From Erythrobacter sp. 3-20A1M (GTDB lineage: Bacteria > Pseudomonadota > Alphaproteobacteria > Sphingomonadales > Sphingomonadaceae), in the NCBI RefSeq assembly GCF_018636735.1, contig NZ_CP045200.1, forward strand, positions 496,001-560,000: a stretch of 64,000 bases of DNA, read 5' to 3'. Positions 16,421 to 43,716 of the stretch are shown in pieces. The notes under the pieces were generated by a model. The model did no database searches. It was not told the origin of the DNA and saw only the letters and a list, made by a program, of their open reading frames with translations. Position numbers and translations under genes: made by a program. The first letter of the stretch is position 1; every line of letters starts with the position of its first letter.

Positions 16421-18232
16421 GTGACGGGCCAGAATGAGATGCGAGCAGCACGCAAGAGACTTCGCTCGCGAAGCTGGTTCGACAATCCCGACCATCCCGA
16501 TATGACCGCGCTCTATCTGGAGCGCTATCTGAATTACGGGCTGAGCATCGAGGAGCTGCAATCGGACCGTCCGATCATCGGGATCGCGCAGACGGGTAGC
16601 GACCTCGTGCCCTGCAACCGCCACCATCTGGTGCTGGCCGCGCGGGTGAAGGACGGCATTCGAGAAGCGGGCGGCATTCCGCTGGAATTCCCGGTGCATC
16701 CGATCCAGGAAACCGGCAAGCGCCCCACCGCGGGGCTCGACCGCAACCTCGCCTATCTGAGCCTGGTCGAGACCATCTACGGCTATCCAATCGACGGCGT
16801 TGTCCTGACGATCGGGTGCGACAAGACCACCCCGGCGTGCCTGATGGCGGCTGCGACGGTCAACGTGCCCGCGATCGCCCTGTCGGTCGGCCCGATGCTG
16901 AACGGATGGCACGAGGGGCGGCGCGTCGGCTCCGGAACCATCATCTGGAAAGCCCGCGAGATGCTGGCGAAGGGCGAGATCGATTACGAGGGATTCATCA
17001 AGCTGGTCGCTTCGTCATCGCCCTCGACGGGCTATTGCAACACCATGGGCACCGCCACGACGATGAATTCGCTGACCGAGGCCCTGGGCATGTCCCTGCC
17101 GGGCTCGGCCGCGATCCCTGCACCCCATCGCGACAGACAGCAATGCGCGTGGGAGACCGGTCGCCAGATCGTGGAGATGGTTGCCGCGGATCGCAAGCCC
17201 AGTGACATCATGACGCGGGATGCCTTCCTGAACGCAATCAGGGTGAATTCCGCGATCGGCGGGTCGACCAACGCGCCGATCCACCTCAACGCGGTCGCGC
17301 GGCATCTCGGCGTGGAGCTGACGATCGCCGATTGGGAGGAGCACGGGGCGAAGGTCCCCCTGCTCGTCAATCTCCAGCCCGCCGGGGAATATCTCGGCGA
17401 GGATTTCCATCGGGCCGGCGGGGTGCCCGCCGTCATGGGCGAATTGCTGCGCAACGGCGAGCTGGACGGATCGGTCATGACCGCCACCGGAAAGACGGTC
17501 TCGGAAAATATCGGCACCGCCCGCTCGCTCGACGAGCAGGTCATCCGTCCTTACGGCCAGCCGCTGGCGGAGCACGCGGGGCTGACGGTCCTGTCGGGCA
17601 ACCTGTTCGACAATGCCGTGATGAAGACTTCGGTCGTCTCGGCCCAATTCCGGTCGCGTTACCTTTCGAACCCGGAATCGCCGAACCGGTTCGAAGGGCG
17701 CGCGATCGTGTTCGATGGGCCGGAGGATTATCACCAGCGGATCGACGATCCCGAGCTGGGGGTCGATCAGGATTGCATCCTGATCATGCGCGGTGCCGGG
17801 CCGGTGGGCTATCCCGGGGGGGCTGAGGTCGTGAACATGCGTCCGCCCGCCGCCTTGATCCAGGCCGGTATCGATACGCTTCCATGCATCGGCGACGGTC
17901 GCCAATCGGGCACCAGCGGATCTCCGTCGGTCCTCAATGCCTCGCCTGAAGCCGCCGTCGGCGGCGGGCTGGCATTGGTGCGAACGGGCGACACGATCCG
18001 GATCGACCTGACCGCGCGCAAGGTCGACGTGCTACTGGATGACGAGGAACTCGACCGGCGCCGCCAGGAAATCAGCGACGATAACACAGGTTTGGCACCG
18101 GAATCACAGACCCCATGGCAGGAAATACAGCGCAATCTGGTCGGGCAATTCGGCGAAGGCGCGGTGCTGGAATGTGCCGTCGCCTATCAGCGGATCGCCC
18201 AGACCAAGGGTCTACCGCGCGACAGTCACTAG
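16421..18232 (+). CDS. IlvD/Edd-family sugar-acid dehydratase (probable galactonate dehydratase)
   Basis: This 603-residue enzyme belongs to the iron-sulfur dehydratase family. Cluster cysteines lie in [10 protein letters not shown] near residue 132, [19 protein letters not shown] near residue 205, and the C-terminal [15 protein letters not shown]. It dehydrates aldonic acids to 2-keto-3-deoxy acids. The adjacent kinase and aldolase point to D-galactonate, giving KDGal. Arabonate, fuconate and xylonate are dehydrated by close relatives. The GTG at 16421 follows a purine-rich stretch; an ATG at 16439 is less well supported. Its TAG overlaps the convergent regulator stop by four bases. Confidence 0.85.
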
Positions 18233-19026
18233 GGAAGCGAGGCGGCACGCCCGCCCTGCCCGTCGCCGCTATCCTGCCCGATTAGGTCGAGCACTTCACC
18301 GATCAGGTGTCGCATCGCGCGCCGCGCGCCGTCCTCATCCCTCTTGGCGATGGCATCGAGGACGGCACCGTGGTCCTCGATGCTGGCGGTGTGGCCCTTG
18401 ATCTTGTTGGTGAACCGGATCGAAGTCTGCAACGCCGTCGAAACCACATCACGAAACTGGCGGTAGAACGGGTTCTCTGAAGCTTCCAGAATCGCCACGT
18501 GGAAGGCGATATCGGCGGAGAGCGTATCGTCCTCGCCCTTCTCGGCCTCGCGCATCCGGTCCAGCCCATCCGAAATGAGTTTCAGATCGTGTTCCTGGTG
18601 AAAACGAGCCGCCAAGGCGGCCGCTTCGGGTTCGATCGCGACCCGCAGCTGGTTGAAGTGGCGCAAGAGGACGACCGAGGCTCTTCGTTCCAGCAGCCAT
18701 CGAAGGACATCGGGGTCGAAAAGATTCCAGTTCTCCGCCGGCTCGACGACCGTGCCCTGGCGCGGGCGTGCGCTGAGCAATCCCTTGGCCGTCAGCATCT
18801 TCACCGCCTCGCGCGTGACGGAGCGACTGACCCCGTGATGCTGCGTCAATTCCGCTTCGGTAGGGAACGGCGCATCGTTGTATTCGCCCACGATGATAGC
18901 TCGCCCGAGATGTTCGAGCATTCCCTGAGTCAGATTCCGGCCAAGCCGGGAGCGGACGCTCCCGTCGTCTTCTACTGCCCTCACCAAGGCTGCTCCTTCC
19001 CACCAAAATCGGTTATCTGCCATCAT
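18229..19026 (-). CDS. GntR/FadR-family regulator (DgoR-like)
   Basis: The product is 265 residues. The N-terminal winged helix contains [31 protein letters not shown], written here as two stretches: [16 protein letters not shown] and [13 protein letters not shown]. The all-helical FCD effector domain follows, with the family [13 protein letters not shown] motif near residue 170. FadR-subfamily proteins regulate sugar-acid pathways, for example DgoR on galactonate. It is divergent from the sodium/sugar symporter and convergent with the dehydratase. A 15-bp element shared by the two divergent promoters of the locus is a candidate binding site. The effector is probably galactonate or KDGal. Confidence 0.85.
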
Positions 19027-19076
19027 AGCTTAAAGTGATGATCGCGATAGACAAACCATCCACGGCTGGACAAAGT

Positions 19077-19091
19077 CTATAAATAATATAA
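19077..19091 (+). promoter_or_regulatory. Second copy of the galactose-locus element
   Basis: CTATAAATAATATAA lies between the divergent regulator and symporter genes, 61-75 bp before the symporter start and 51-65 bp before the regulator start. Only the central base differs from the copy at 16329-16343. A weaker relative (ATATTATTT on the minus strand) occurs near 33358-33372 in front of the TonB receptor gene, suggesting the same control may reach it. Confidence 0.5.
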
Positions 19092-19151
19092 TTCGGCCCG
19101 AGCGTGAAATGGGCCACCGCGGGTGGCCCGCGGGGCGGAGGGTGCGATCCT

Positions 19152-20771
19152 ATGGGTCTGGCGACATTCGATATCGTCGTGGTGGCGATCTATGCGGTGG
19201 GAATATTCGGTCTCGCGCAATGGGTCAGCCGCGACCGTGCGGGGCATGAAAAGAACAGCTCGGATTATTTCCTGGCTTCGAAGTCGCTGCCCTGGTGGGC
19301 GATCGGCGCGTCTCTCATCGCCGCCAATATCTCGGCCGAACAGATCGTCGGCATGTCGGGTTCGGGCTATCGCCTCGGCCTCGCCATAGCATCCTATGAA
19401 TGGATGGCGGCGCTGACGCTGCTGATCGTCGGCAAGTTCTTCCTGCCGATCTTCCTCAAGAACAGCATCTACACCATGCCCCAGTTTCTGGAGCAGCGGT
19501 ATGGCCCGAATATCCGCACCATCATGGCGATCTTCTGGCTCGGCCTGTACATCTTCGTGAACCTTACCTCGATCCTGTGGCTGGGATCGATCGTGGTCAA
19601 CCAGGTCGCCGGCGTCGACCAGATGGTTGCCCTGTTCGGCTTGGGCGGGTTCGCCCTGCTGTACCAGCTTTACGGTGGGCTGAAGGCGGTCGCCCTGACG
19701 GATATCGTGCAGGTCACGCTGCTGGTATTCGGCGGCCTCATCATCTCGGGCCTGACGCTGAACGAAGTGGGCGGCGGGCAAGGCGTCTGGGTCGGCTTCA
19801 CCACGTTGCTCGACCAGGCTCCGGACAAGTTCAACATGATCCTAGAGCCGGGCGATATCGGCTATCAGGAACTGCCAGGGATCGCCGTGCTGGTCGGCGG
19901 CATGTGGATCGCCAACCTCAGCTATTGGGGCTTCAACCAGTATATCATCCAGCGGGCACTGGCCGCGAAGAACCTGAAGGAAGCGCAGAAGGGCGTGGTC
20001 TTCGCCGCCATCCTGAAGCTGCTGATGCCGCTGGTGGTCGTCATGCCCGGCCTCGCCGCCGTCATTCTGGCACCCGGCCTGGACCCGGCCGATCAAGCTT
20101 ATCCCACGATGATGCGCTATCTGCCGACCGGCCTGCTGGGACTGGTGTTCGCCGCATTGATGGCGGCGGTGGTCGCCTCTACCGCGTCGAAGATCAATTC
20201 GATCGCGACCATCTTCACCCTGGACCTCTATGCCAAGCGTCGCGGGTACAGAAGCGAAGCGGAGGACGAGACCCGGCGCGCGGGCCATGAAAAGCATCTC
20301 GTTTTGATCGGCCGGATCAGCGCGAGCGTAGCCACGCTGCTGGCGCTGTTCGCGGCACGCCCGCTCCTCGGCAGCCTCGATCAGGCATTCCAGTTCATCC
20401 AGGAATTCTCCGGCTTCATCACGCCAGGCATCACGGTCATCTTCCTGCTCGGCCTGTTCTGGAAGAGGGCGAGCGAAGCGGGTGCCATCACCGCCGCAGC
20501 CGTGTCGATCCTGGGCAGCGTCGTGTTCTGGTTCCCCAGCGATTGGGGCGGGATCGCGGCGCTGAACGCGGTGCCCTTCATGAACCGCATGATGTGGGTG
20601 TTCTTCCTCTCGCTGGGACTTGCGATACTGGTCTCGTTCCTGAAACCCGGCGCGGCCGGCAGCGACCGGATCGAGACGGCGGATATCAGCTATGCGACCA
20701 GCAAGTCCTTCAATATCGCCGGGTTCGCGGTGATCGGGATCCTCATCGCACTCTATGCCGCAATGTGGTGA
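19152..20771 (+). CDS. SSS-family sodium/sugar symporter (SglT-like)
   Basis: The ATG at 19152 has a GGAGGG site about 9 bases upstream, giving 539 residues and about 14 membrane helices. Solute:sodium symporter marks include SSDYFLASKSLPWWAIGASL in the first loop and helix, ISAEQIVGMSGSGY, and YQLYGGLKAVALTDIVQ. The long GQGVWVGF and WGFNQYIIQRALAAK region resembles sodium/glucose-galactose transporters. It probably brings galactose, freed in the periplasm by the alpha-galactosidase, into the cytoplasm. It is first in an operon with the kinase (10-base gap) and aldolase. Confidence 0.87.
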   Translation: MGLATFDIVVVAIYAVGIFGLAQWVSRDRAGHEKNSSDYFLASKSLPWWAIGASLIAANISAEQIVGMSGSGYRLGLAIASYEWMAALTLLIVGKFFLPIFLKNSIYTMPQFLEQRYGPNIRTIMAIFWLGLYIFVNLTSILWLGSIVVNQVAGVDQMVALFGLGGFALLYQLYGGLKAVALTDIVQVTLLVFGGLIISGLTLNEVGGGQGVWVGFTTLLDQAPDKFNMILEPGDIGYQELPGIAVLVGGMWIANLSYWGFNQYIIQRALAAKNLKEAQKGVVFAAILKLLMPLVVVMPGLAAVILAPGLDPADQAYPTMMRYLPTGLLGLVFAALMAAVVASTASKINSIATIFTLDLYAKRRGYRSEAEDETRRAGHEKHLVLIGRISASVATLLALFAARPLLGSLDQAFQFIQEFSGFITPGITVIFLLGLFWKRASEAGAITAAAVSILGSVVFWFPSDWGGIAALNAVPFMNRMMWVFFLSLGLAILVSFLKPGAAGSDRIETADISYATSKSFNIAGFAVIGILIALYAAMW

Positions 20772-20781
20772 GCGTGGAGTG

Positions 20782-21651
20782 GTGAGCGTGGGAACCTTTC
20801 TTGCAGTCGACTGGGGGACGACCAACCGTCGCGTCTATCTCATCGAGGGCGACCGGGTCGTCACGACCGAGAGGGACGATCGCGGAGTAGCCGCCAAACC
20901 CGATTTTGCGGGCGAGATCGACGGGATACGGGATCGCTTCGGGCCCCATAGGATCGTCATGGCCGGGATGGTCGGGTCGTCGATCGGCTGGCACGAGGCA
21001 CCTTATGTGCCCGCCCCGGCGGACCTGTCCACACTGGCCGCCGCTTGCGTGCAGCCGGATCGGGACGTGTACATCGTGCCGGGCGTATCCCGGATGGACG
21101 ATACCCGCGCGGACGTCATGCGGGGGGAGGAAGTTCAGCTGCTCGGGGCCGTGGACGCCGGTCTCGTTCCGCCCGATGCGCTTCTGATCCAGCCGGGTAC
21201 CCATTGCAAATGGGTGGAAACGAAGGGCGGAAGTATCGCCCGCTTCACCACCGCCATGACAGGCGAACTATTCGCCATTCTCAGCCGCGACAGCATCCTC
21301 GCATCGCAGCTTGCCGGTTCGGTCGCCCAGGGCGAAGCCTTCCTCGCAGGTGTGGACAAGGGGCTCGAACGCGACCTGTCCGCCGCGCTGTTCGGTATCC
21401 GGGCCGCCGGGTTGCTGGGCTCGCTCGCGCAGGATGACGCACCGTCCTTTGCCAGCGGCTTGCTTATAGGAGCGGAGGTCGCCGCACGCTTTACCGAATA
21501 CGGTCACGATCTCGTCCATATCCTGGCCGATGAGCGGCTAGGGGTTCTCTATGCCAAGGCGATCGAACGAGCAGGTCGCAAGTCAACCGTGATCGATAGC
21601 CAAGCGGCATTCGTGCGCGGTATCGTCAAAATAGAAGGCCTATTGCCATGA
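20782..21651 (+). CDS. dgoK: 2-keto-3-deoxygalactonokinase
   Basis: The protein of about 289 residues begins with the phosphate-binding AVDWGTTNRRVYLIEGD typical of DgoK. It continues with GMVGSSIGWHEAPYVPAPAD near residue 55, and VDAGLVPPDALLIQPGTHCKW near residue 125 (two adjoining segments). It phosphorylates KDGal with ATP to KDPGal in the cytoplasm. The GTG at 20782 is chosen because a GGAG lies just upstream; the GTG at 20788 is equally possible. Its stop overlaps the aldolase start (ATGA). Confidence 0.9.
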   Translation: MSVGTFLAVDWGTTNRRVYLIEGDRVVTTERDDRGVAAKPDFAGEIDGIRDRFGPHRIVMAGMVGSSIGWHEAPYVPAPADLSTLAAACVQPDRDVYIVPGVSRMDDTRADVMRGEEVQLLGAVDAGLVPPDALLIQPGTHCKWVETKGGSIARFTTAMTGELFAILSRDSILASQLAGSVAQGEAFLAGVDKGLERDLSAALFGIRAAGLLGSLAQDDAPSFASGLLIGAEVAARFTEYGHDLVHILADERLGVLYAKAIERAGRKSTVIDSQAAFVRGIVKIEGLLP

Positions 21652-22298
21652 GTTTCGTCCCCGAGTTCGACAGTGCCTTTTCCGCCTGCCCGCTGGTCGC
21701 AATCCTGCGCGGCGTGACGCCCGTCGAAGTGGAAGACATCGGCGAAGCGTTGGTGGAGGCGGGCTTTCGCCTGATCGAAGTGCCGCTCAACTCGCCCCAG
21801 CCGCTCGACGGTATCGCTCGACTCGCCGCTCGGCTGAAGGGCCGCGCCATGGTCGGCGCAGGCACAGTCCTAAGCGTCGAACAGGTTGCGCAGGTGGCTG
21901 ACGCTGGCGGTCAGATCGTCGTCTCGCCCAACACCAACGCGGGCGTGATTGAGGCGACGGCAACTGCGGGCCTTGCGTCTCTACCTGGCTTCGCGACGCC
22001 GAGCGAGGCGTTCGCCGCTATCGACGCCGGAGCCACCGCGCTAAAGCTCTTTCCTGCCGAAGCCTCGAGCCCGGCAGCGTTGAAAGCGACACGCGCGGTG
22101 CTCCCGAAGGAACTCGCCGTTCTCCCCGTGGGCGGGATCGAGGTCGACTCCATGGAACCATGGGTGAAGGCCGGCGCGTCGGGTTTCGGCCTGGGCTCCT
22201 CGCTTTACAAGCCGGGCCGGACCCCGGCCGATGTGGGTGAAAGAGCACGGGCATTCGTCGAAGCGTGGCGCGAACTTTCCGCCGCTCAGTCGCAGTAG
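21648..22298 (+). CDS. dgoA: 2-dehydro-3-deoxy-6-phosphogalactonate aldolase
   Basis: This 216-residue class I aldolase of the KDPG/KDPGal family has CPLVAILRGVTPVEV at its N-terminus, the catalytic Glu in FRLIEVPLNSPQP (the NSP form favours KDPGal over KDPG aldolase), and the Schiff-base Lys in ATALKLFPAEAS near residue 127. PVGGIEVDSMEPWVKAGASG ends the barrel. It splits KDPGal to pyruvate and glyceraldehyde 3-phosphate, completing the De Ley-Doudoroff route. It overlaps dgoK by four bases, and its 3' end overlaps the convergent mutarotase gene by 13 bp. Confidence 0.92.
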   Translation: MSFVPEFDSAFSACPLVAILRGVTPVEVEDIGEALVEAGFRLIEVPLNSPQPLDGIARLAARLKGRAMVGAGTVLSVEQVAQVADAGGQIVVSPNTNAGVIEATATAGLASLPGFATPSEAFAAIDAGATALKLFPAEASSPAALKATRAVLPKELAVLPVGGIEVDSMEPWVKAGASGFGLGSSLYKPGRTPADVGERARAFVEAWRELSAAQSQ

Positions 22299-23371
22299 AA
22301 CCGCCAGATCATACGGTTGCGATAGATCTCGCCGGGTTCGAGCACACCGGAACCGAAGGCGGGCTGGTTCGGCGTGTCGGGAAACAGCTGCGGCTCTAGC
22401 GCGAGGCCGTCATGCGGGCGATAGACCCGCCCGCACTTGCCCGCGCGCTCGCCGGACAGGAAATTGCCGCCGTAGAACTGGAGGCCGGGCTGGTCGGACC
22501 ATAGATCGACGGCGCGCCGCGAAGCTGGGTCGCGAAGCGTGGCCACCAGACGCGGTTCCGCCGTTCGACCGCCAATGAGCGTCCAACAGTGATCGTAGCC
22601 CCCTGCCACCTGCAGCTGCGGGTCGTCGTTGCCCGCATGCGTCAACGGCTGGCGAGGCTGGCCAAAATCGAACGGGGTTCCCGCAACGTCGCGAAATTCG
22701 CCGGTAGGAATGCCCCCGGGCCGGATCGGCAAGAATGCGTCGGAATCGATAGTCAGCTCCTGCCCTCGCGCATCGCGGTCGCTCGCTTCGCCCGCGAGGT
22801 TCCAGTAGCTGTGATGCGTAAGGTTCAGTATCGTCGAACGATCGCTGACCGCCTCGTATTCCACCGTAAGGCCGTCTTCGCGATCGAGCGTGAAGACTGC
22901 CCTCACCCGCACATCGCCGGGAAAACCCTCCTCGCCATCCGGGCTGAAAAGCGACAGCACCGCCGTCGCGCTCTCGCCGCCGCTATGGCTCTCGACGGTC
23001 CATAGCCTGGAATCGAAACCCTGCGTCCCGCCGTGCAGCGAATTGGGTCCGTCATTGCTGGTGAGAACGAACTCTTCTCCCCCGAGCGAGAATTTCGCCC
23101 CGGCGATGCGATTGGCCCACCGACCGACAGTCGCGCCGAGATAGGCGGGATCCGACAGATAGCCGGCGAGATCGGGATAGCCGAGCACCACGTCCGCCAC
23201 GCCGCCGGCCGCATCGGGAACCAGCATGCTCTGCAGCCGCGCGCCATAGGTGATCACCCTCGCAACGAAACCGCGCGCGTTTTCCAGCCGGAGCGCATGA
23301 ACCTCCCGTCCGTCCGGCAGATGGCCGAACGGCTCGATACGCGTTTCGCAAACGACGCCGTCTCTTTGCAT
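22286..23371 (-). CDS. galM: Aldose 1-epimerase (galactose mutarotase)
   Basis: The 361-residue protein has the mutarotase signature residues: GATVGRWANRIAGAKF near residue 75, NSLHGGTQGFDSRLW with a catalytic His near residue 110, LTHHSYWNLAG with the second His near residue 185, and the general-base Glu near the C-terminus in GLALEPQLFPDTPNQP. It interconverts alpha- and beta-galactose, supplying the anomer the dehydrogenase uses. No signal peptide is evident, so it is cytoplasmic. It is convergent with dgoA and divergent from the halogenase operon. Confidence 0.92.
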   Translation of the reverse strand: MQRDGVVCETRIEPFGHLPDGREVHALRLENARGFVARVITYGARLQSMLVPDAAGGVADVVLGYPDLAGYLSDPAYLGATVGRWANRIAGAKFSLGGEEFVLTSNDGPNSLHGGTQGFDSRLWTVESHSGGESATAVLSLFSPDGEEGFPGDVRVRAVFTLDREDGLTVEYEAVSDRSTILNLTHHSYWNLAGEASDRDARGQELTIDSDAFLPIRPGGIPTGEFRDVAGTPFDFGQPRQPLTHAGNDDPQLQVAGGYDHCWTLIGGRTAEPRLVATLRDPASRRAVDLWSDQPGLQFYGGNFLSGERAGKCGRVYRPHDGLALEPQLFPDTPNQPAFGSGVLEPGEIYRNRMIWRFYCD

Positions 23372-23634: not shown

Positions 23635-25140
23635 ATGGCAGGACCTGCAATCCAATCGCAGCCCGCCCCCCTGCGCGTGGTCATCCTGGGCGGCGGAACG
23701 GCAGGGTGGATGACCGCCGCCGCGCTCCAAACCATGGTCGGTGCGACGACTGATATTCATCTGATCGAATCCGAAGATATCGGCATCGTCGGTGTGGGCG
23801 AGGCGACCCTGCCGCATCTGCGCGCATTCATCGCGCGCCTCGGGATAGACGAGCGCGAATTCATGGCCGCCACGCAGGCGACCTACAAGCTGGGGATCGA
23901 GTTTTCGGGCTTCGGGCGCGAGGGAGAGCGGTACATCCATCCCTTCGGCACCTATGGGCGCAGCCTGGCCGGGGTCGGTTTTCATCATTTCTGGCTGCGC
24001 GCCCGGGCCGAGGGCGAGGCCTCGCGGATAGACGAATATTCCTTCGCGGTCATGGCGGCGGAGGCGCGCCGGTTCGCCCGGCCTGCGCAGGACGGCGATC
24101 CGATCGAGAGCTTCGGCTACGCCTATCAGTTCGATGCGACCCTGTTCGGCCCCTATCTTCGCGACCGGGCCACCGCGCGGGGCGTGCGACGGACCGAAGG
24201 GCGCGTCGTGTCGGTCGAGCGCGACGAAGGCGGCGACGTGTCCGCGCTCCTGCTCGAAAGCGGCGCACTGGTGGAAGGCGACCTGTTCATCGATTGCTCC
24301 GGCTTCCGTGCACTGCTGATCGGGGAGGAAGAGTGGGAGGACTGGTCGCATTGGCTGCCATGCGACCGCGCCGTCGCCGCCCCTTGCCTGCCCGCGAGCG
24401 ACGACATCGAACCCTACACGCGGGCGATCGCCATGCCCGCAGGCTGGCGCTGGCGGATCCCGCTGCGCCACCGCGTCGGCAATGGCTACGTCTATTCGAG
24501 CAAGCATTGTTCCGACGACGAGGCGCGGCAGGGCCTGCTGGGCGCACTCGAAAGCGAAGCCCTCGCTGAACCGCGCGTGCTGCGGTTCAGCGCTGGCAGG
24601 AGGCGGCGCAGCTGGGTCGGCAATGTCGTATCGATCGGGCTCGCCTCCGGATTTCTGGAGCCGCTGGAATCCACCAGCATCTACCTGATTCAGACAGCCA
24701 TTACCGGCCTGCTGGAGCACTTTCCCAATGGCACGATCGAGCCGGAAGAGCGCGCCGCATTCAATCGCGAAGTCGATTACGAATACGACCGCATCCGCGA
24801 CTTCCTGATCCTGCATTATCACGCGACCGAGCGCAGCGATTCCGACTTCTGGAACCATGTGCGCACCATGGACATCCCCGAAACGCTGGCGGAGAAGATG
24901 GAGCTGTGGCGCACTTGCGCGCTGGTGCCGCAGTATCGCCGGGGGCTGTTCCTGGAGCCGAGCTGGATTTCGGTGATGATCGGTCAGGGGATCATGCCGC
25001 ACGGCTGGGACCCGCGCACCGAGTTCCCGTCCCTCACCGGTCTTCGGCAGGCGATGTCGGGGCTATCCCACCGTATCGCCGAGGGAGTCGAGGCGCTTCC
25101 GACGCACGCCGCCGTGCTGGCGGGAGAGGTCGCGGCGTGA
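23635..25140 (+). CDS. Flavin-dependent tryptophan-halogenase family protein, copy 1
   Basis: This 501-residue protein has the whole flavin-dependent halogenase motif set: GGGTAGW (residues 19-25) for FAD, Lys85 in ATYKLGIEF as the expected catalytic lysine, WRWRIP (271-276) as the family WxWxIP motif, and FLEPLEST (340-347) with the partner glutamate. It should use FADH2, oxygen and halide to halogenate an aromatic substrate, with reductant from a separate flavin reductase that is not seen nearby. Relatives are often found beside sugar TonB receptors in sphingomonads, caulobacters and xanthomonads, where the real substrate is unknown. It is the first of three coupled paralogues. Confidence 0.88.
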   Translation: MAGPAIQSQPAPLRVVILGGGTAGWMTAAALQTMVGATTDIHLIESEDIGIVGVGEATLPHLRAFIARLGIDEREFMAATQATYKLGIEFSGFGREGERYIHPFGTYGRSLAGVGFHHFWLRARAEGEASRIDEYSFAVMAAEARRFARPAQDGDPIESFGYAYQFDATLFGPYLRDRATARGVRRTEGRVVSVERDEGGDVSALLLESGALVEGDLFIDCSGFRALLIGEEEWEDWSHWLPCDRAVAAPCLPASDDIEPYTRAIAMPAGWRWRIPLRHRVGNGYVYSSKHCSDDEARQGLLGALESEALAEPRVLRFSAGRRRRSWVGNVVSIGLASGFLEPLESTSIYLIQTAITGLLEHFPNGTIEPEERAAFNREVDYEYDRIRDFLILHYHATERSDSDFWNHVRTMDIPETLAEKMELWRTCALVPQYRRGLFLEPSWISVMIGQGIMPHGWDPRTEFPSLTGLRQAMSGLSHRIAEGVEALPTHAAVLAGEVAA

Positions 25141-26516
25141 CTCTGACGAACGTTCGCAAGCCGATAGCCAGCGCCGTGATCGTCGGAGGCGGTGCCGTCG
25201 CTTTGTGTGCGGCCCTGGCGCTGAAACGCGCTCTGCCAAAGGCGGAAATCCAGCTCGTCGAGCGCGGCAACGCCGAGACTGGCATCGCCGACAGCGTCCT
25301 ACTCGTTCATCCACCGGCGATGAGACTGCTCGATCTGATCGGTCTGGACGAAGCCGGATTGGTCCGCGCCGGACTGGCTTCTCACACGCTGGGCGACCGG
25401 TTCACCGGTTGGACGAAGGCACCGTTCATCGTCCCGGTTGCGGAGGAAGAGCCCGTTGCAATGGGCATTCCGATTTCGCTCATCGAACGCATGCGGACGG
25501 GACGCCGCGATCCGGCGACCGGCTCTGCAGCCATTGCCTTGGCCGAGGCCGGGAAATTCGATCCCGACAGCTTGCATCGGACGGACGCGGGCGACGCGAT
25601 CGGATATGCGCTGCATCTCGACACCGCGGGTTTCACGGCTCTTTTGCGGCGCTTCGCCGAGCAGGCGGGTGTCATCTTCACGGGAGACACGGACTCGCTT
25701 GCCGAGGCGGATCTCCGGCTGGAGTGCGCCGGGTGCGGCACGGTGCTCCAGGACGCCCGGTCGGAAGATTGGGGCGGGGAAATCTCGGATGGCGAAATGC
25801 TGCTGTGGGACGTTGCAGCGGCACCCTCGCTGCTGAACGAATATGCGGCAAGGGATTGGGGATGGCAGTCCACGCTGCCGGGACCGCGCACGACGCGCCA
25901 TGTTGCGGTGTTCGACCCGAAACGAGGTGTTCCGTCGACTCCCCGTGATGCGAGGAAGCTGGCTTTCGCAACCGGGCGGCTCGAAAGACCGCTGGAGGAT
26001 CGGCGCGTCGCGCTGGGCGACGCCGCCGCCGTGCCCGGCCCGCTTGGCGGCTTCGGATTTACGCTTGCGGCGATGCATCTGGCTCTCCTGTTGGACTTCA
26101 TGCCGGGCAGCGAACCGCACCCTCTGATCGAGCGGGAATACAACCGCCGCGCCGCCCTTATTTCCGATGAAATCCGTGACTTCGTCGCCGCATTGCATGT
26201 CCATTCGCAACATGCCGGTGCTTTCTGGAAGCGTCTCCGGAAGCACGGCGCAGTCGGTGAACTGATGCAGGTGACGCGGCGCTTCGCACGATCCGGTCGT
26301 CTCCCGCCGCGCGAGGTCGATGCGATCGCGGATGCGAGCTGGACGCGCGCGCTCGATGCTCTGGTGGAAGCCGGTCCGGGATACGACGCGCTTGCGCTGT
26401 CGGTCCCCCTGCAACGAGCAGACGAAGTGCTGGAAGCGCGGCGCAATGCGGTGGCGAAACTGCTGCGCTCGCAAACGGACTACGACAATTGGTTGACGGA
26501 GGAACGCGGACGATGA
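25137..26516 (+). CDS. Degenerate tryptophan-halogenase-like flavoprotein, copy 2
   Basis: The GTG at 25137 overlaps the first halogenase stop, giving 459 residues. The FAD fold is kept in outline (SAVIVGGGAVALCAALAL, residues 12-29), but catalytic features are lost. The K of the KLG motif is replaced (HTLGDRF). The WxWxIP motif is altered to WGWQSTLP, and FLEPLEST is replaced by PGPLGGFGF. It is therefore unlikely to halogenate and may be a partner subunit, an FAD-binding helper or a diverged monooxygenase. The frame is fully open and coupled on both sides, so it is maintained and not a pseudogene. Confidence 0.75.
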   Translation: MTLTNVRKPIASAVIVGGGAVALCAALALKRALPKAEIQLVERGNAETGIADSVLLVHPPAMRLLDLIGLDEAGLVRAGLASHTLGDRFTGWTKAPFIVPVAEEEPVAMGIPISLIERMRTGRRDPATGSAAIALAEAGKFDPDSLHRTDAGDAIGYALHLDTAGFTALLRRFAEQAGVIFTGDTDSLAEADLRLECAGCGTVLQDARSEDWGGEISDGEMLLWDVAAAPSLLNEYAARDWGWQSTLPGPRTTRHVAVFDPKRGVPSTPRDARKLAFATGRLERPLEDRRVALGDAAAVPGPLGGFGFTLAAMHLALLLDFMPGSEPHPLIEREYNRRAALISDEIRDFVAALHVHSQHAGAFWKRLRKHGAVGELMQVTRRFARSGRLPPREVDAIADASWTRALDALVEAGPGYDALALSVPLQRADEVLEARRNAVAKLLRSQTDYDNWLTEERGR

Positions 26517-28015
26517 GCCGTGGGGACGGAAATGCGATACGCGATCTGGTGATCGTCGGCGGCGGTACCGCCGGATGGATGATGGCCGCCGCCGCCGGGC
26601 GCGTGCTGGCTGGTGGACTGCGCAGCATCACCCTGATCGAATCCGACGCGATCGGAACAATCGGCGTGGGCGAAGCGACGATTCCCCCCATCCTGGGCTT
26701 CAACGAACTCCTCGGGATCGACGAGCGGGCGTTTCTGGAAGCGACGCAGGGCACCTTCAAGCTCGGGATCGAATTCGAGAACTGGGGCCGGCAAGGCACG
26801 CGATATTTCCACCCGTTCGGGCGGACCGGCCGCGACTTCGACGGTATCGCATTCCACCAGCTGTGGTCGTGGCTGCGCGATGCCGAAGGCGTGGGCTCGC
26901 TGGAGGAATATTCCATGAGCGCCGTGGCGGCGCGCAATGGCAAGTTCGCACACCCCCAGTCCGATCCACGCTCGCCTCTCTCCAACTTGCAATACGCCTA
27001 CCATTTCGATGCGACGCGCTATGCCGCATTCTTGCGCAGCTATGCGATCGAGCGCGGGGTCGCCCGGCAGGAGGGGCGGATCGTCGATGTCGAGCTCGAC
27101 GGTGAGACCGGGCACGTCCTTGCAGTCAAGCTGGAGGATAGCACGCGGGTCACCGGCGACCTGTTCATCGATTGCAGTGGGTTTCGCAGCATGTTGCTGG
27201 GCGAGGCCATGGGCGTCCCCTTCACGGACTGGTCGCACTGGCTACCGTGCGACAGGGCCGTTGCGGTGCCGAGCGCTGCGAAAGAGCAGATCGCACCCTA
27301 CACGCGTTCGCGCGCCCTTACGGCCGGATGGCAGTGGCGCATCCCGTTGCAGCACCGGACCGGCAACGGCCATGTCTATGCGAGCGCCTATATGGAAGAC
27401 GCGGAGGCCGAGCGGCTTCTGCTGGCGAATCTCGACAGCGAACCCGCCGACGATCCCCGGCCCCTGCGCTTCCGCACCGGAGTGCGCGAGAAATTGTGGG
27501 AGCGCAATGTCGTCGCACTCGGCCTGTCGGGCGGATTTCTGGAGCCGCTAGAATCGACTAGCATCCACCTGATCCAGACCGGTATCTCCAAGCTGCTGGC
27601 GCTCTTCCCCGACCGTGATTTCACCGACGTTGAGCGCGACGAATACAATCGCCTGATGACTTCCAGCTACGCCGCCGTGCGCGATTTCATCGTGGCGCAT
27701 TACCATGTCACCCAGCGGGACGACACGCCCTTCTGGAATTACGTGCGCACGATGGAAATTCCTGACAGCCTGGAAACGCGGCTGGAGCTGTTCCGCCGGA
27801 AAGGCCGGATTTTTCGTTACGACGACGAGCTGTTCACCGTGGGTAGCTGGGCCGCGATCCTTGAGGGCCAGGGAATGAAGCCGCTCGGCAGCGACCCGCT
27901 CTGCGCGGCCCTGGACGCAGACGGATTGGCACAGGCAATGCGCCGGATGAAGCAAGCCCACCACGCCATGGCCGCGCGCCTGCCGCTGCATCGAGATGCG
28001 ATCGGAGGCGGCTAA
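26513..28015 (+). CDS. Flavin-dependent tryptophan-halogenase family protein, copy 3
   Basis: This 500-residue protein starts in an ATGA overlap with copy 2. All halogenase motifs are intact: GGGTAGW (16-22), Lys83 in GTFKLGIEF, WQWRIP in the middle, and FLEPLEST at about residue 343. It resembles copy 1 closely throughout, so the pair arose by duplication. The predicted chemistry is FADH2-dependent halogenation in the cytoplasm. Its stop overlaps the stop of the convergent alpha-galactosidase frame. The position inside a galactoside locus raises the question of what is halogenated. Confidence 0.88.
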   Translation: MSRGDGNAIRDLVIVGGGTAGWMMAAAAGRVLAGGLRSITLIESDAIGTIGVGEATIPPILGFNELLGIDERAFLEATQGTFKLGIEFENWGRQGTRYFHPFGRTGRDFDGIAFHQLWSWLRDAEGVGSLEEYSMSAVAARNGKFAHPQSDPRSPLSNLQYAYHFDATRYAAFLRSYAIERGVARQEGRIVDVELDGETGHVLAVKLEDSTRVTGDLFIDCSGFRSMLLGEAMGVPFTDWSHWLPCDRAVAVPSAAKEQIAPYTRSRALTAGWQWRIPLQHRTGNGHVYASAYMEDAEAERLLLANLDSEPADDPRPLRFRTGVREKLWERNVVALGLSGGFLEPLESTSIHLIQTGISKLLALFPDRDFTDVERDEYNRLMTSSYAAVRDFIVAHYHVTQRDDTPFWNYVRTMEIPDSLETRLELFRRKGRIFRYDDELFTVGSWAAILEGQGMKPLGSDPLCAALDADGLAQAMRRMKQAHHAMAARLPLHRDAIGGG

Positions 28016-29934
28016 CGGAGCGGCAGGACCCTCAGGGAAAGCCTCGATCGTCGGGCCGAAACCCCATTAGCGCTGCAACTTCGCGTTCGCCCAGGCGACC
28101 ATCGGACCGCGTTGCTCGGTACCCCCGGCACGCGTGACCAGTTCACGATCTGGGCGCCCGTTACGTCCGCATCGATTGTACCGACTTGTCCGCCGGCAAC
28201 CTTCGCCTCGGCTACGAGCTTCTTGTCGGCATAGACCTGGAACTGAACGGGCACTGCACCTTCGGCCACCGCTGGCCGCGCAGTGAAGCGACCGAATTCA
28301 CCGTCGGTCCGCAATTCGAGGCGCGAATTGGCGAAGAGGCCGATGCCCTTGTCGAAGGTGGTCTTGCCAGCGGCGAGCGGCCCGCCGTCGGGCGCGGCGG
28401 CGACGCGCGCCGGGGTCCAGCCTTCGGGAAGGCTGTGATTGCCCAGTCCGTCGGCCGCGACATTGATGCGCCCCGGCATTTCATCGAGCCACACCGCATC
28501 GGAATCGAGGGGTGTACCCTTTAGTCGAAACAGCTTGGCCTCGCGGGGACTCAGTTGAACGGTTATCGCGCCTGATGCCGGGGAAAGCGTTTCATGGCTC
28601 CAGACGTCGCGCACGCTTGCGTCGGTGTCGGGCGCGAAACCGAGCTGCGTCCAATTCACCGTCGCGGAAACCGGCTCGTCCCCCCGGTTGAAGAAGGCGA
28701 CCGCGCGCGATCCGGGGCCCGAGAGCGTGCGAACGACCACCATCGCCTCGCCATCGGGATAGGCGACGCCCTGATTGCCGGCCGGGTCCTGATCGATCGC
28801 GATGACCTCGCGATTGCCGACGATGTCGAGCAGTTCCTGCGGCGAGTGGCGCAGGTCGTATCCGAGCAAGAGGGGTGAAGCCATGATCGCCCACATGCTC
28901 ATGTGGGCACGCGCTTCGGTCAGGTGGTTCTCGTCGAAGTCGCCATGTCCGATCGCCAGCATGTCGGGATCGTTCCAGTGGCCCGGACCGGCATAGAGCG
29001 TGCGATAGACGGCGCTGTCGATGTTGCGCAGCATGCTGTCCCAGTTGAATTCGATATCCGGGCTGGTGCGCCACAGATTGCCCTGCTTGTGCCCCCAGCG
29101 CGGCGACAGCGCCTCGCCCCAGGCACAGATGCTCAGCACCGCATCGGGTCCGCCCCACTCCTTGATCGCGCTACCGAGCTGCGCATAGAGCGCTTCCACC
29201 GCGTCGGGGTTCGACTTGGGAATGTCCCCCCGCACGATGTAGGGCGGGAACACCGCGAAGCGCCCGGACTCGACCGGCTCGGTACCCGGTGCGTAGTCGG
29301 CTACTCCGCACGCATCGATCTTCACGTAGTCGAAATTCCAGGTTCCGAAGATCGCCTTCATGTCCTGTTCGGCATGGCCCAGGCTGCCCACCTGGCGTTC
29401 GGCCATCGTCCCGACCGGCAGATTGGGGCTCTTCGCATCGTGATACTGGGCACAGGTGTTGCGCCCGATATCGGTATAGAGGCCGGCTTTCAGGCCCAGA
29501 CCGTGGACGAAATCCGTGAAGGGGACGAAGGTGCCGTTGGGATAGCCCTCGACCTTGGCCGAAGGGAACATCGTATCGCGGATCTTGAGCGTCCCGTCGG
29601 CCTTGCGCTGCAACGCCCAGCCATCGTCGATATTTACATAGCGATAACCGAGCTGGGCCAGACCGTTGTCGACCAGTGCCTCTGCCGACCCGCGGATCTT
29701 TGCCTCGTCAACGTCGGTGCGAAATGCATTCCACGGATTCCACCCCATCGGCGGGGTCTGCGCGGCATCGGTCTGATAGACCGAATACCTACCCGTAGGC
29801 TCGAGGTCGTCGGCAGCTTCCTTCGCCCCCAGCGGCGATGCCGCGAGCGAGAGCAAGGCGAGCGTGCAGATCGACCTCGAGAACAGTTTCGATGCAGGAT
29901 TGCGCATCGAGCGCCCGGATTTTGCGGAATTCAT
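28012..29934 (-). CDS. Secreted GH27 alpha-galactosidase with frameshifted NPCBM-like C-terminus
   Basis: The ATG at 29934 follows GGAGGAG and gives 640 residues. A signal peptide lies around residues 10-37 (an internal ATG at 29907 is also usable). The GH27 barrel shows TPPMGWNPWNAF, NIDDGWA, the nucleophile Asp in FDYVKIDACG, and the acid/base Asp in GHWNDPDML. A C-terminal NPCBM-type carbohydrate domain follows. Near 28140-28144 one base appears missing. Read one frame over, the domain continues naturally as LVTRAGGTEQRGPMVAWANA and stops at 28067-28069, while the current frame runs on to 28012 with an unrelated Arg/Ser-rich tail. The catalytic domain is unaffected. Confidence 0.88.
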   Translation of the reverse strand: MNSAKSGRSMRNPASKLFSRSICTLALLSLAASPLGAKEAADDLEPTGRYSVYQTDAAQTPPMGWNPWNAFRTDVDEAKIRGSAEALVDNGLAQLGYRYVNIDDGWALQRKADGTLKIRDTMFPSAKVEGYPNGTFVPFTDFVHGLGLKAGLYTDIGRNTCAQYHDAKSPNLPVGTMAERQVGSLGHAEQDMKAIFGTWNFDYVKIDACGVADYAPGTEPVESGRFAVFPPYIVRGDIPKSNPDAVEALYAQLGSAIKEWGGPDAVLSICAWGEALSPRWGHKQGNLWRTSPDIEFNWDSMLRNIDSAVYRTLYAGPGHWNDPDMLAIGHGDFDENHLTEARAHMSMWAIMASPLLLGYDLRHSPQELLDIVGNREVIAIDQDPAGNQGVAYPDGEAMVVVRTLSGPGSRAVAFFNRGDEPVSATVNWTQLGFAPDTDASVRDVWSHETLSPASGAITVQLSPREAKLFRLKGTPLDSDAVWLDEMPGRINVAADGLGNHSLPEGWTPARVAAAPDGGPLAAGKTTFDKGIGLFANSRLELRTDGEFGRFTARPAVAEGAVPVQFQVYADKKLVAEAKVAGGQVGTIDADVTGAQIVNWSRVPGVPSNAVRWSPGRTRSCSANGVSARRSRLSLRVLPLR

Positions 29935-29987
29935 GGCTCGATACTCCTCCAACACCCTCTTATTCGCATTCGTACGTCTTCGGACGG

Positions 29988-32900
29988 TCAGAACTTCATC
30001 CGCGCCGTAAGAGCATACTGGCGGTCGTTCTTGAACCACGAACGCGGCGTCCGCAGCCCGTCGCCGTTCAGCACGAACGAGGTCTTGAGCGTGGTGTCCA
30101 GCAAGTTCTGGACTTCGAACACCAGACGGAACCTGTCGTCCACATCCAGGCCAATGGACGCGTCCAGCTGTCCGCTGGGCTCCTGATACACCGGGCCGAA
30201 GGGGAAGCAGCAATCGAGCCGGGTGAGCAGGAACCGGGACCGCCAGCTGTAAGCCGCCCGCGCCTGGATCTTACCTCTTTCGTAGAACACGGCCGCGTTG
30301 AAGTTATGCTTCGACAGGCCCTCCAGAGGCAGGCTTTCATAGAGCCCCGAGATGTCGATGGTAGGCTGGTTGCCCGTTTCCACCAGGTTGTTCGACGGCG
30401 CGTAGGCGGGCGGACCGAGCGCGATCTTGCCCACATCGATGAAGGTGTAAGAAAGCTGTGTGCCCAGACCCGCCAAGGCTCCGGGCAGGAAGTCGAAGGT
30501 CTGCTGATAGGCGATTTCCGCGCCCTTGACGGTCGTATGCCCTTCCGAATTGGCCGGGCCGCTGACCGAAACCGGTAGCGTCACGCCATTGTTGGTCAGG
30601 TCGCGGTTATAGACCTGATTGGAGACCACGACATTGTTCAGATCCTTGTAGAAGGCAGCGAGCGTCAGGGACCCGACCGGCGCGAAATACCACTCTGCGG
30701 TCAGGTCGAGCTGCCAGGCCTCCACGGGTCGCAGATACGGGTTCTGGGATCGCGCGGTAAACCCGCCGAGCTGCGCGTTGTAATTGAGCCCGACGTAATT
30801 CCGCAGCTTGCTGAACTCGGGCCGCGAGATCGCCTTCGAGGCGGCAAAGCGGAACACCAGTTCGTCCGACGCATCGAAGCGCACGTTCAGCGATGGCAGC
30901 CAGTGATCGAAGCTGTTCTCCGCCACGTCGGCCAGCGCTGCGCCATCCGCGAAGTCGAGCGCCGCTTGCTGTTGAGCAGCGGTGACCCCCGGTCGACACA
31001 ATGCCGGCAGCGGCCCGGTGCCCTGCGCCTGGCCGGCGCAGAATGCGATGAAGTCGCCGTTGAAGCTGTCCGGAATGACCTGAGACGACGGCGCGAAATT
31101 GATCGCACCGGTCGATTCGTCGCGGGTGTGGACGTAACGCACGCCGAGGTTGCCCGACAACTTCATGCCGCTGTCGAACTCGGTCCCGAACGAGGTCGAG
31201 ATATATCCCGCCCATGTTTCCTCGCTGTTGGGGTACACTTCGCCGGGCAGGAAATAGCCCTTGATCAGGTCGCTGCCGCGATCCTCGATCGGCGTGAAAT
31301 AGCCCGGAGGTGCGAGCGAACGGGCCAGATCGATAAGCCCGCCACGCGATTCGAGGATCGAGTCGCGAATGAACAAGGCACCCGGCGGCGGGGTCGCGGC
31401 GTCGTGGAAGAAGTCCGGAAAGCCGTAGAAAGAGACGACGGACGGATCGCTGTTGACGAAGTTGGGACCACCCTCGATCCAGGTTTCCGACAGACCGCCC
31501 CAGTTATTGAACTCGTTGGTGCGAACCGTCTGTTTACGCTTCGCATATCGGCCGCCGACGCGAACCTCCTTCAGGAAGCTGTCTTCCGAGAGGTCGTAGG
31601 AAGCATCCGCCCTGAAGGCATATTCTTCGCCATCATTGATAGCGCGGTTTTCGACCGCCGACCGATAATAGGTGGAATTGCCGCTGCCGATATATTCGGC
31701 GGGGTCGAAACCGGGGGTCACGAAATTGACGTCCGGATACTTGCCGGTCAGATCGATGTCGTAGTTCGCCAGCGTGTTGAAATTGATCGCATCGTCGGCG
31801 TTGTCGACCTTGGACTTCGCATATTGCCCGTCGAACATCAGGTGCAAACGGTCGGACGGCGACCACTTGATGTTCAGCGACGCGTCCTGCGCCGTCACAT
31901 CGTTGAAGGCCGAACGGTTCGAAAGCTTGGTGAAAATGCCGCCGGGTATGAACTGGCGGTAATCGCACCAGTCGCTCGACGAGCCCTGGCACAGCCCACT
32001 GACGTACCCGCCACTGTGCACCAGCGTACCCGAGGTGAACACACCGTTTTCGTCATACATGAAATTGGCGTCCGGGTCGTACGCAAACCCGGGCTGATCC
32101 AGGTAGCCCGCGGGATAAATCTGGCCTGCATCGGGGAACCAGTTGTCCGCCTCGATGGTGCGCTCGGTCCACCTTTCGTTGAACTCCGAGCGGATATATT
32201 CCGCCGTGACCAGCAGGTTTCCGGCTGCGTTCTCGTACTGGAGAGCGGCGTTCAGGCTGTTGCGCTCACGCTCGAAATCCTGCGAGCGGAACCCGGCGCC
32301 CAGCGGGGTATAGACCTGGTCGTACCCGGCGGGCGTCGGGAAGTTGTCGCACACGCGCAGCGCGTAGGGTTCGCCCTCGTTGATGATGCGCCCGTTGGCA
32401 CAGGTGCCGTCGGCTTCGAACGGAGCGTTGAAGCGGGGTTGGAAACCGTTGAGGAAGATCGAGTCCGCGCGGCTGTACTGCTTGGAATAGCTGCCGCCGA
32501 CCAACAGGCCGACCCGGCCGCCGTCGCCGAACTCCCACTGATCGCTGAACAGACCGACGAACGACGGCGCGGATTTTTGCGCGATGTCGCCGTAGTTGAT
32601 CCCGGCCGATAGGAAGAGCACGGGATCGGTTGAATCGAAGGGTTTGCGCGAGTTGATGCTGACCGTGCCGGCGATGCCGCCTTCGATCATGTCCGCGGTC
32701 AGGTTCTTGAACACCTCGACGGAGCCGGCGAGTTCCGCCGGCACGCTGTCGAAGCCGAGCTCACGCCCGCCCGAAGCGGAGAAAGCGTCGCGACCGTTGA
32801 ACTCGCTGCGAACGTAATTCAGCCCGCGGACCGTGACGCCCGAACCCTGGACCGAAAAGTGCGCGGAATCGTTGGGTGCCGCGAAGCGGTTGATGGCAAC

Positions 32901-33278
32901 GCCGGGAACACGCTGCAGCGCTTCGTTGATGGAGCGGTCGGGCAACGATCCGATGTCGTCGGCCGTAATCGCGTCCACGACCGTGTCGGCGTTGCGTTTA
33001 ATCTCCTGCGCAGAGGCGAGACTCTGGCGAATGCCGGACACGACGATGACATTGTCGTCCGTCTCGTCGGATGCGGGCTTGGAAAGCTCCTCGTCCGCTT
33101 CCTGTGCATGCGCGACGTTGGACATGGACGCTGCGAGCAGCGAACTGCCCACGAGGAATTTCCAGTAGCCCGAAGCACGCCTGGTGCCGCGCCCCGCCGC
33201 AAGGGCCTGCGTCGCGTCTACCGAAACATCCGATCGGCTGCGTAGCGCTATCGGATCATATCCCGCAATTTTCATCAT
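29988..33278 (-). CDS. TonB-dependent receptor, large (Caulobacter-type sugar receptor)
   Basis: The ATG at 33278 has a GGGAGG site 7-8 bases upstream, giving 1096 residues. An extended N-terminus carries a signal segment around residues 40-65 (ending AHAQ). It is followed by DNVIVVSGIRQSLASAQEIKR as TonB box and plug start, split at VSGIRQ. The plug continues with SVEVFKNLTADMIEGGIAG, and a long barrel ends in YALTARMKF with terminal Phe. Receptors of this length and plug type (TIGR01782-like) import oligosaccharides. Sitting 53 bp ahead of the alpha-galactosidase on the same strand, it probably imports an alpha-galactoside. Confidence 0.9.
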   Translation of the reverse strand: MMKIAGYDPIALRSRSDVSVDATQALAAGRGTRRASGYWKFLVGSSLLAASMSNVAHAQEADEELSKPASDETDDNVIVVSGIRQSLASAQEIKRNADTVVDAITADDIGSLPDRSINEALQRVPGVAINRFAAPNDSAHFSVQGSGVTVRGLNYVRSEFNGRDAFSASGGRELGFDSVPAELAGSVEVFKNLTADMIEGGIAGTVSINSRKPFDSTDPVLFLSAGINYGDIAQKSAPSFVGLFSDQWEFGDGGRVGLLVGGSYSKQYSRADSIFLNGFQPRFNAPFEADGTCANGRIINEGEPYALRVCDNFPTPAGYDQVYTPLGAGFRSQDFERERNSLNAALQYENAAGNLLVTAEYIRSEFNERWTERTIEADNWFPDAGQIYPAGYLDQPGFAYDPDANFMYDENGVFTSGTLVHSGGYVSGLCQGSSSDWCDYRQFIPGGIFTKLSNRSAFNDVTAQDASLNIKWSPSDRLHLMFDGQYAKSKVDNADDAINFNTLANYDIDLTGKYPDVNFVTPGFDPAEYIGSGNSTYYRSAVENRAINDGEEYAFRADASYDLSEDSFLKEVRVGGRYAKRKQTVRTNEFNNWGGLSETWIEGGPNFVNSDPSVVSFYGFPDFFHDAATPPPGALFIRDSILESRGGLIDLARSLAPPGYFTPIEDRGSDLIKGYFLPGEVYPNSEETWAGYISTSFGTEFDSGMKLSGNLGVRYVHTRDESTGAINFAPSSQVIPDSFNGDFIAFCAGQAQGTGPLPALCRPGVTAAQQQAALDFADGAALADVAENSFDHWLPSLNVRFDASDELVFRFAASKAISRPEFSKLRNYVGLNYNAQLGGFTARSQNPYLRPVEAWQLDLTAEWYFAPVGSLTLAAFYKDLNNVVVSNQVYNRDLTNNGVTLPVSVSGPANSEGHTTVKGAEIAYQQTFDFLPGALAGLGTQLSYTFIDVGKIALGPPAYAPSNNLVETGNQPTIDISGLYESLPLEGLSKHNFNAAVFYERGKIQARAAYSWRSRFLLTRLDCCFPFGPVYQEPSGQLDASIGLDVDDRFRLVFEVQNLLDTTLKTSFVLNGDGLRTPRSWFKNDRQYALTARMKF

Positions 33279-33474
33279 TTTCTGTCCTCCCACTGAAGCG
33301 CATCGTGGCTGGTCACCCCTTGTTCGAACCAGCGCCCTCATCGCCATCGACGTCGTGGATAAAATAATATGATAATTTGTCAAACCCAAAAAAAGGAAAC
33401 ATAGACAGGGCAATCGGGCCGGGAATAGGATGGGCAAACTGCAAATCTGGCAAAAAACGAGGGAGACCCTTTCG
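33279..33474. promoter_or_regulatory. Divergent promoter region between TonB receptor and DUF4832 gene
   Basis: This 196-base gap is AT-rich in its centre (about 33357-33400) and must drive both genes. On the minus strand ATATTATTT within 33358-33372 matches nine consecutive bases of the element at 19077-19091, which makes it a weak third candidate for the galactose-locus operator. No coding potential is seen. Confidence 0.4.
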
Positions 33475-43618: not shown

Positions 43619-43632
43619 GATGCAAAATGAAA
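43619..43632 (-). promoter_or_regulatory. Single AgaR-like site upstream of TonB receptor
   Basis: On the minus strand this reads TTTCATTTTGCATC, 12 of 14 positions agreeing with the remembered AgaR consensus and sharing the TTTCRTTTT core with 41467-41480. It is about 85 bp before the receptor start. The region 43560-43620 is AT-rich and probably contains the receptor promoter. Confidence 0.4.
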
Positions 43633-43716
43633 CATACTGAGGGTACAGCCCTCGTTTCGCAAATCGGGGCGCTGTTACGGCCGGAGAATGCCGGGCAGCT
43701 TGATGGAGGGCTTATG

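Follow-up and report, generated by a model that had tools for sequence, protein, structure and literature searches.

A halogenase trio with an inactive second gene beside a TonB-dependent receptor in Erythrobacter sp. 3-20A1M: a possible receptor-maturation module

Introduction

The BrvH group of flavin-dependent halogenases occurs widely among environmental Proteobacteria, and solved structures are available for two members. BrvH from Brevundimonas BAL3 (6frl) and Xcc4156 from Xanthomonas (6y1w) were published as single enzymes that act on indoles in vitro (PMC5945002, PMC7336383), and the native substrates of BrvH and of the Xanthomonas enzymes are given there as unknown (PMC7336383). BrvH favours bromide, does not take free Trp and is weakly active on indole; its active site is open to solvent and has been compared with that of the peptide halogenase MibH (PMC5945002). 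A second halogenase gene lies upstream of brvH, which recalls the trio described here. In the accessible parts of both reports, we found neither a receptor nor an inactive partner connected with BrvH or Xcc4156 (PMC5945002, PMC7336383). Likewise, the open literature, to which our search was confined, subscription papers not being covered, yielded no description of a receptor linkage or an inactive partner, and nothing relevant on halogenases together with SapC, TonB or receptor modification.

Here, we analyzed a window of 64,000 nucleotides from Erythrobacter sp. 3-20A1M that contains three consecutive halogenase genes, hal1, hal2 and hal3. The first and third share the Lys, the Glu, the EST-S/N halide loop and, to judge by their sequences, probably the short lid with BrvH and Xcc4156, but they are found in a trio and not as single enzymes. 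They also have the fold and catalytic residues of the tryptophan halogenases RebH, PrnA and PyrH; however, those enzymes take free Trp under a long lid, whereas hal1 and hal3 appear from their sequences to have the short loop of the BrvH type. MibH has an open active site like that of BrvH (PMC5945002), but its substrate is a lanthipeptide, and no precursor peptide gene was identified at the hal1-3 locus. The surroundings of the trio resemble the CUT loci of Xanthomonas and Caulobacter, in which a TonB receptor, sugar enzymes, an inner-membrane transporter and a regulator occur together, as they do here; halogenases are unmentioned in the text of that paper (PMC1790865).

Results

The three genes overlap by four bases at both junctions, GTGA (25137-25140) between hal1 and hal2 and ATGA (26513-26516) between hal2 and hal3, exactly as the earlier note had read them (Table 1). 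This coupling is confined to the trio. Because galM, on one side, and the GH27 and receptor genes (28012-33152), on the other, run on the opposite strand, the trio lies outside the receptor's operon. It diverges from galM and converges on the GH27 gene, and so constitutes its own transcription unit. The converging ends of hal3 and the GH27 gene share 4 bp (28012-28015).

Table 1. Features of the halogenase locus (positions in the window)
Feature	Positions	Strand	Evidence
Galactonate-type catabolic genes, SSF transporter, FadR/GntR-type regulator	16502..22298	.	SSF by Pfam; rest from translations
galM, aldose 1-epimerase, divergent from hal1	22286..23371	-	PF01263, 275 bits
hal1, BrvH-type flavin-dependent halogenase, first-gene clade	23635..25140	+	ATG start, TGA stop; PF04820, 608 bits
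hal2, inactive halogenase paralogue	25137..26516	+	GTG start, TGA stop; PF04820, 110 bits, match in two stretches
hal3, BrvH-type flavin-dependent halogenase	26513..28015	+	ATG start; PF04820, 624 bits
GH27 alpha-galactosidase with NPCBM domain, likely secreted	28012..29856	-	Melibiase_2 and NPCBM; hydrophobic N-terminal stretch
TonB-dependent receptor, TIGR01782 (TonB-Xanth-Caul)	29988..33152	-	643 bits, cut-off 310
Receptor motif W551-G-G-L-S-E-T-W558, candidate modification site	31479..31502	-	Sequence comparison and predicted loop
DUF4874/DUF4832 protein, divergent from receptor	33430..34902	+	Profile match

The PF04820 matches of hal1 and hal3 are full length, covering profile positions 1-453 and 2-457 of 458, respectively. 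The first and third copies had been thought to keep their catalytic motifs, and alignment with a residue check confirmed this: GxGxxG, the catalytic Lys, WxWxIP and the Glu in EPLESTS are present in both (in hal3, K83 and E347 are the Lys and the Glu), together with the Ser of the EST-S halide loop. Their nearest solved structures are 9luq, Xcc4156 (6y1w) and BrvH (6frl), with scores of 435-461 bits for hal1 and 448-467 bits for hal3, and in the sequence alignment the lid stretch of both runs ungapped with BrvH and Xcc4156. By homology to BrvH, the use of bromide by hal1 and hal3 is plausible. No flavin reductase gene adjoins the trio, and three PF01613 genes are found elsewhere in the genome. 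Inspection by eye revealed no signal sequence in any of the three halogenases, and a receptor would therefore be met in the cytoplasm, before its export.

In hal2, T stands at the Lys position and G at the Glu position, and WxWxIP is lost; the GxG and the GDAA stretch are kept. Its AlphaFold model (pLDDT 79) has the halogenase fold, with a Foldseek TM score of 0.85 to BrvH and Xcc4156. What follows the first halogenase in clusters of three or four genes is usually a gene that lacks the Lys, the Glu or both. In a tree of 249 halogenases, the inactive second-gene proteins form one clade (48/48, support 0.89), a 49th, cut to a fragment by the end of its contig, falling outside this count; the same single clade was recovered with moderate support in an IQ-TREE LG+C20 subset tree (26/26, SH-aLRT 83). 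The clade spans Alpha- and Gammaproteobacteria, and its members are placed after an active halogenase in these operons, although its long branches call for caution. Since the substitutions at the Lys and Glu positions vary among its members, the losses may have gone stepwise.

If hal2 were a pseudogene in decay, the operon would amount to two halogenases, and Ka/Ks values of the inactive genes above those of their catalytic neighbors, about twofold in most pairs, could be taken in this sense. However, Ka/Ks is below 1 in all ten pairs (0.13-0.59, the distant pairs being close to saturation; 0.36 for hal2 against its counterpart in locus L041, from a genome of the same genus). Furthermore, the frames are open in 48 loci that form one clade over two classes, and 45 columns are invariant in 12 sequences, so decay is very improbable. 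The inactive clade thus appears to be ancient and under purifying selection. As a single clade with Ka/Ks below 1 and a model that fits BrvH and Xcc4156, hal2 is best regarded as a retained non-catalytic halogenase, and most simply it would be a structural or substrate-presenting partner. The conservation of an inactive paralogue suggests that the enzymes work as a complex.

Regarding the surroundings, the galactoside setting described in the earlier note was found again in the GH27 enzyme, GalM, the galactonate-type genes (a dehydratase, a kinase and an aldolase, named from their translated sequences), the SSF transporter and the TonB receptor. Judged by these genes, the locus appears to handle alpha-galactosides. 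The receptor, the GH27 enzyme and the SSF transporter (by Pfam) and the FadR/GntR-type regulator (by sequence) give it the make-up of a CUT locus. The receptor measures ~1054 aa from the start chosen here, the start codon not being settled. The whole block occurs in identical order in L041 (genome G007), where hal1, hal3, the GH27 enzyme and the receptor are 76-80% identical and hal2 only 47%. Operator-like AAATNATATNATTT sites, of which 0.2 would be expected in the window, were found at 19081-19094 and 33362-33375, in the SSF/regulator and receptor/DUF4832 promoters, and probably belong to the FadR/GntR-type regulator. An operator common to the hal1/galM and receptor promoters was considered and rejected, as the site is confined to the SSF/regulator and receptor promoters. 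A search of the window gave no AAATNATATNATTT-like site at the hal1/galM promoter, and co-regulation of trio and receptor is therefore without evidence.

The earlier note had also stated that halogenases recur beside sugar receptors, and comparison across genomes supported this. We compared 12 genomes of the same family, which were not drawn at random but selected for the quality of their assemblies and for halogenase hits. In these, 29 of the 33 clusters of halogenases are found <=5 kb from a TIGR01782 receptor, versus a mean of 1.1 and a maximum of 6 in 2000 shuffles with random placement. From the receptor side, a search of 299 genomes with the window's receptor alone as the query gave 71 new loci, and all 71 have halogenase sequence adjoining the receptor. 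A wider set of 103 halogenase loci drew 80 of its members from species of Sphingomonas, Caulobacter, Asticcacaulis, Maricaulis, Aestuariibacter, Gilvimarinus and others. A TIGR01782-type receptor lies <=5 kb away in 83 of the 103, and 12 of the other 20 are cut by a contig end. Four of the uncut loci without such a receptor were opened (L188, L216, L223 and L229); three of these adjoin a different TonB receptor, and GH32 or GH68 enzymes, a TPR 2OG-Fe(II) oxygenase or both are present in the four. The pairing of halogenase and receptor is more general than had been supposed; by itself, linkage cannot name the substrate. In one of the 71 loci (L345:7420-9406, genome G067), divergent receptor and halogenase genes are both broken, since C-terminal parts alone persist, as if one deletion had taken both starts.

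The sugar enzymes beside the halogenase modules change from locus to locus. Some loci hold GH10, GH9, GH3, GH43 and GH1 enzymes, others GH3 with alpha-amylase and GH97, and others GH32/GH68, so that the range covers xylanases, cellulases, amylases and fructan enzymes, and the constant pair is receptor and halogenase. Because the enzymes vary and the receptor stays, a role bound to galactosides or to a single aromatic glycoside is disfavored. The proposal that the trio modifies an aromatic galactoside is consequently not supported, and the galactoside connection appears to be incidental.

The organism's own genome (3.12 Mb, one contig) has two halogenase clusters besides the trio. One reads receptor-hal-SapC-Cupin_8-hal, next to LacI, MFS and GH3 genes; the other contains a hal followed by an inactive hal, then Cupin_8, two further hal genes and a receptor. 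The receptors of all three clusters belong to TIGR01782. The companion Cupin_8 proteins are closest to FIH and JMJD5, which are hydroxylases of protein residues. A third Cupin_8 gene (G000:C1:2720026-2720763) lies away from halogenases, in a region where a TonB plug profile matches weakly at 2731912. The SapC gene between two halogenases (L009:10462-11174; G000:C1 ~1932461-1933173) is split over two frames, covering profile positions 1-99 and 102-220, through either a frameshift or a sequencing error. In three receptor loci, DUF6445 (PF20043) genes stand immediately upstream of halogenases (L195:9258-9992, L205:9312-9995, L240:9285-10004). For the one member searched, no solved relative was found; DUF6445 is possibly a further modifying enzyme.

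Within the receptor, a candidate site was found in two tryptophans, W551 and W558 (window numbering). In receptors extracted with a profile, both are present in 41 of 43 beside inactive-gene clusters, against 0 of the 38 family members that have no halogenase, and a motif of the W-G-x-x-S-x-x-W type occurs in 70 of the 71 receptors from the receptor-side search. The pair stands at the start of a 90-residue predicted loop (547-638) between two strands, which the long-loop rule places on the outer side. The model is of modest quality, its pLDDT averaging 69 and falling to <50 at residues 548-564; Foldseek with this model returned only generic TonB receptors. The motif tracks receptor phylogeny, which confounds the association with halogenases, and an independent-pair test of motif against halogenase presence (7 contrasts) was not significant and had no power. 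The motif is thus a lead only. Furthermore, halogenase-linked receptors beside amylases/GH97 lack it, so it cannot be the sole target, and because single-halogenase loci can hold both Trp, the number of enzymes and the number of tryptophans do not match.

Two further receptors were observed. A second TIGR01782 receptor in the window (43627-46557) has neither a halogenase nor the W-G-x-x-S-x-x-W motif. In the same genome, a receptor at L347:7730-10698 (G000:C1 ~980229-983197) is without a halogenase, while the same type has one in other genomes. A comparison of amylase-type receptors with this halogenase-free receptor at 980229 was dropped, because its N-terminal part lies in another frame, that is, the receptor frame itself is shifted.

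Discussion

We tentatively propose, at somewhat less than an even chance, that the trio is a receptor-maturation module in which the enzymes halogenate or oxidise Trp residues of the receptor ahead of its export and hal2 serves as a non-catalytic partner. Complex formation, target and chemistry are what we infer here from the genes, residues, linkage, conservation and shared ancestry described above. In such a module, hal1 and hal3 would be working BrvH-type halogenases, reduced by a general cellular flavin reductase, and hal2 a dead relative serving as a partner that joins the two enzymes or presents the substrate. The best candidate substrate of the trio would be the neighboring TonB receptor, modified after its synthesis and before its export. 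A Trp may be halogenated or otherwise oxidised, the best candidates being W551 and W558, whose outer loop probably touches the sugar, and in related loci iron-dependent oxygenases may join the action. Modification of a protein is suggested, by analogy, by the closeness of the Cupin_8 partners to FIH and JMJD5, by the likening of the open active site of BrvH to that of MibH, and by the failure of BrvH to take free Trp and its low activity towards indole. The more specific claim, that outer-loop Trp of sugar receptors is the target of a dedicated set made up of two halogenases, an inactive adaptor and, in many cases, an iron oxygenase, is doubtful at present.

Plant xylans bear phenolic esters, and the halogenases could act instead on an imported compound, namely, an aromatic group on, or accompanying, the glycan. 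The position of the genes in sugar-uptake loci agrees with this, as does the acceptance of indoles by BrvH-type enzymes (PMC5945002). However, the module is found with receptors for glycans as different as alpha-galactosides, xylan, cellulose, starch and fructan, several of them without an aromatic part, and catabolism is not helped by halogenation, which makes this explanation unlikely. The module might also produce a halogenated signal or defence compound in the presence of sugar, since the known halogenase relatives belong to secondary metabolism and halogenated products are frequent in marine bacteria. We consider this quite improbable: none of the core genes of a biosynthetic pathway, be it for a synthase, a peptide precursor or export, was found in the examined loci, and the coupling to one receptor per locus would be left unexplained. 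Finally, the trio could work in the manner of QhpG, the hydroxylase of a Trp residue destined for a quinone cofactor; its target would again be the receptor, or some other protein of the envelope, but its enzymes would be monooxygenases and not halogenases. Although a low-scoring NCBIfam hit to QhpG (33 bits, where the cut-off is 240) and the 2OG/Fe oxygenases found as companions point in that direction, the Lys and Glu of halogenases and the BrvH-type halide loop, needless for a hydroxylase, are retained in hal1 and hal3, and we give this possibility a low probability.

For the receptor-maturation module, the tight and sugar-independent linkage names one candidate substrate and, within it, two candidate residues. 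If the enzymes do work as a complex, this would help to account for the weak activity of BrvH when tested alone. Modification of outer-loop Trp, if true, would be a type of post-translational modification new for outer-membrane proteins, and it would give the halogenases of the BrvH type a long-sought role.
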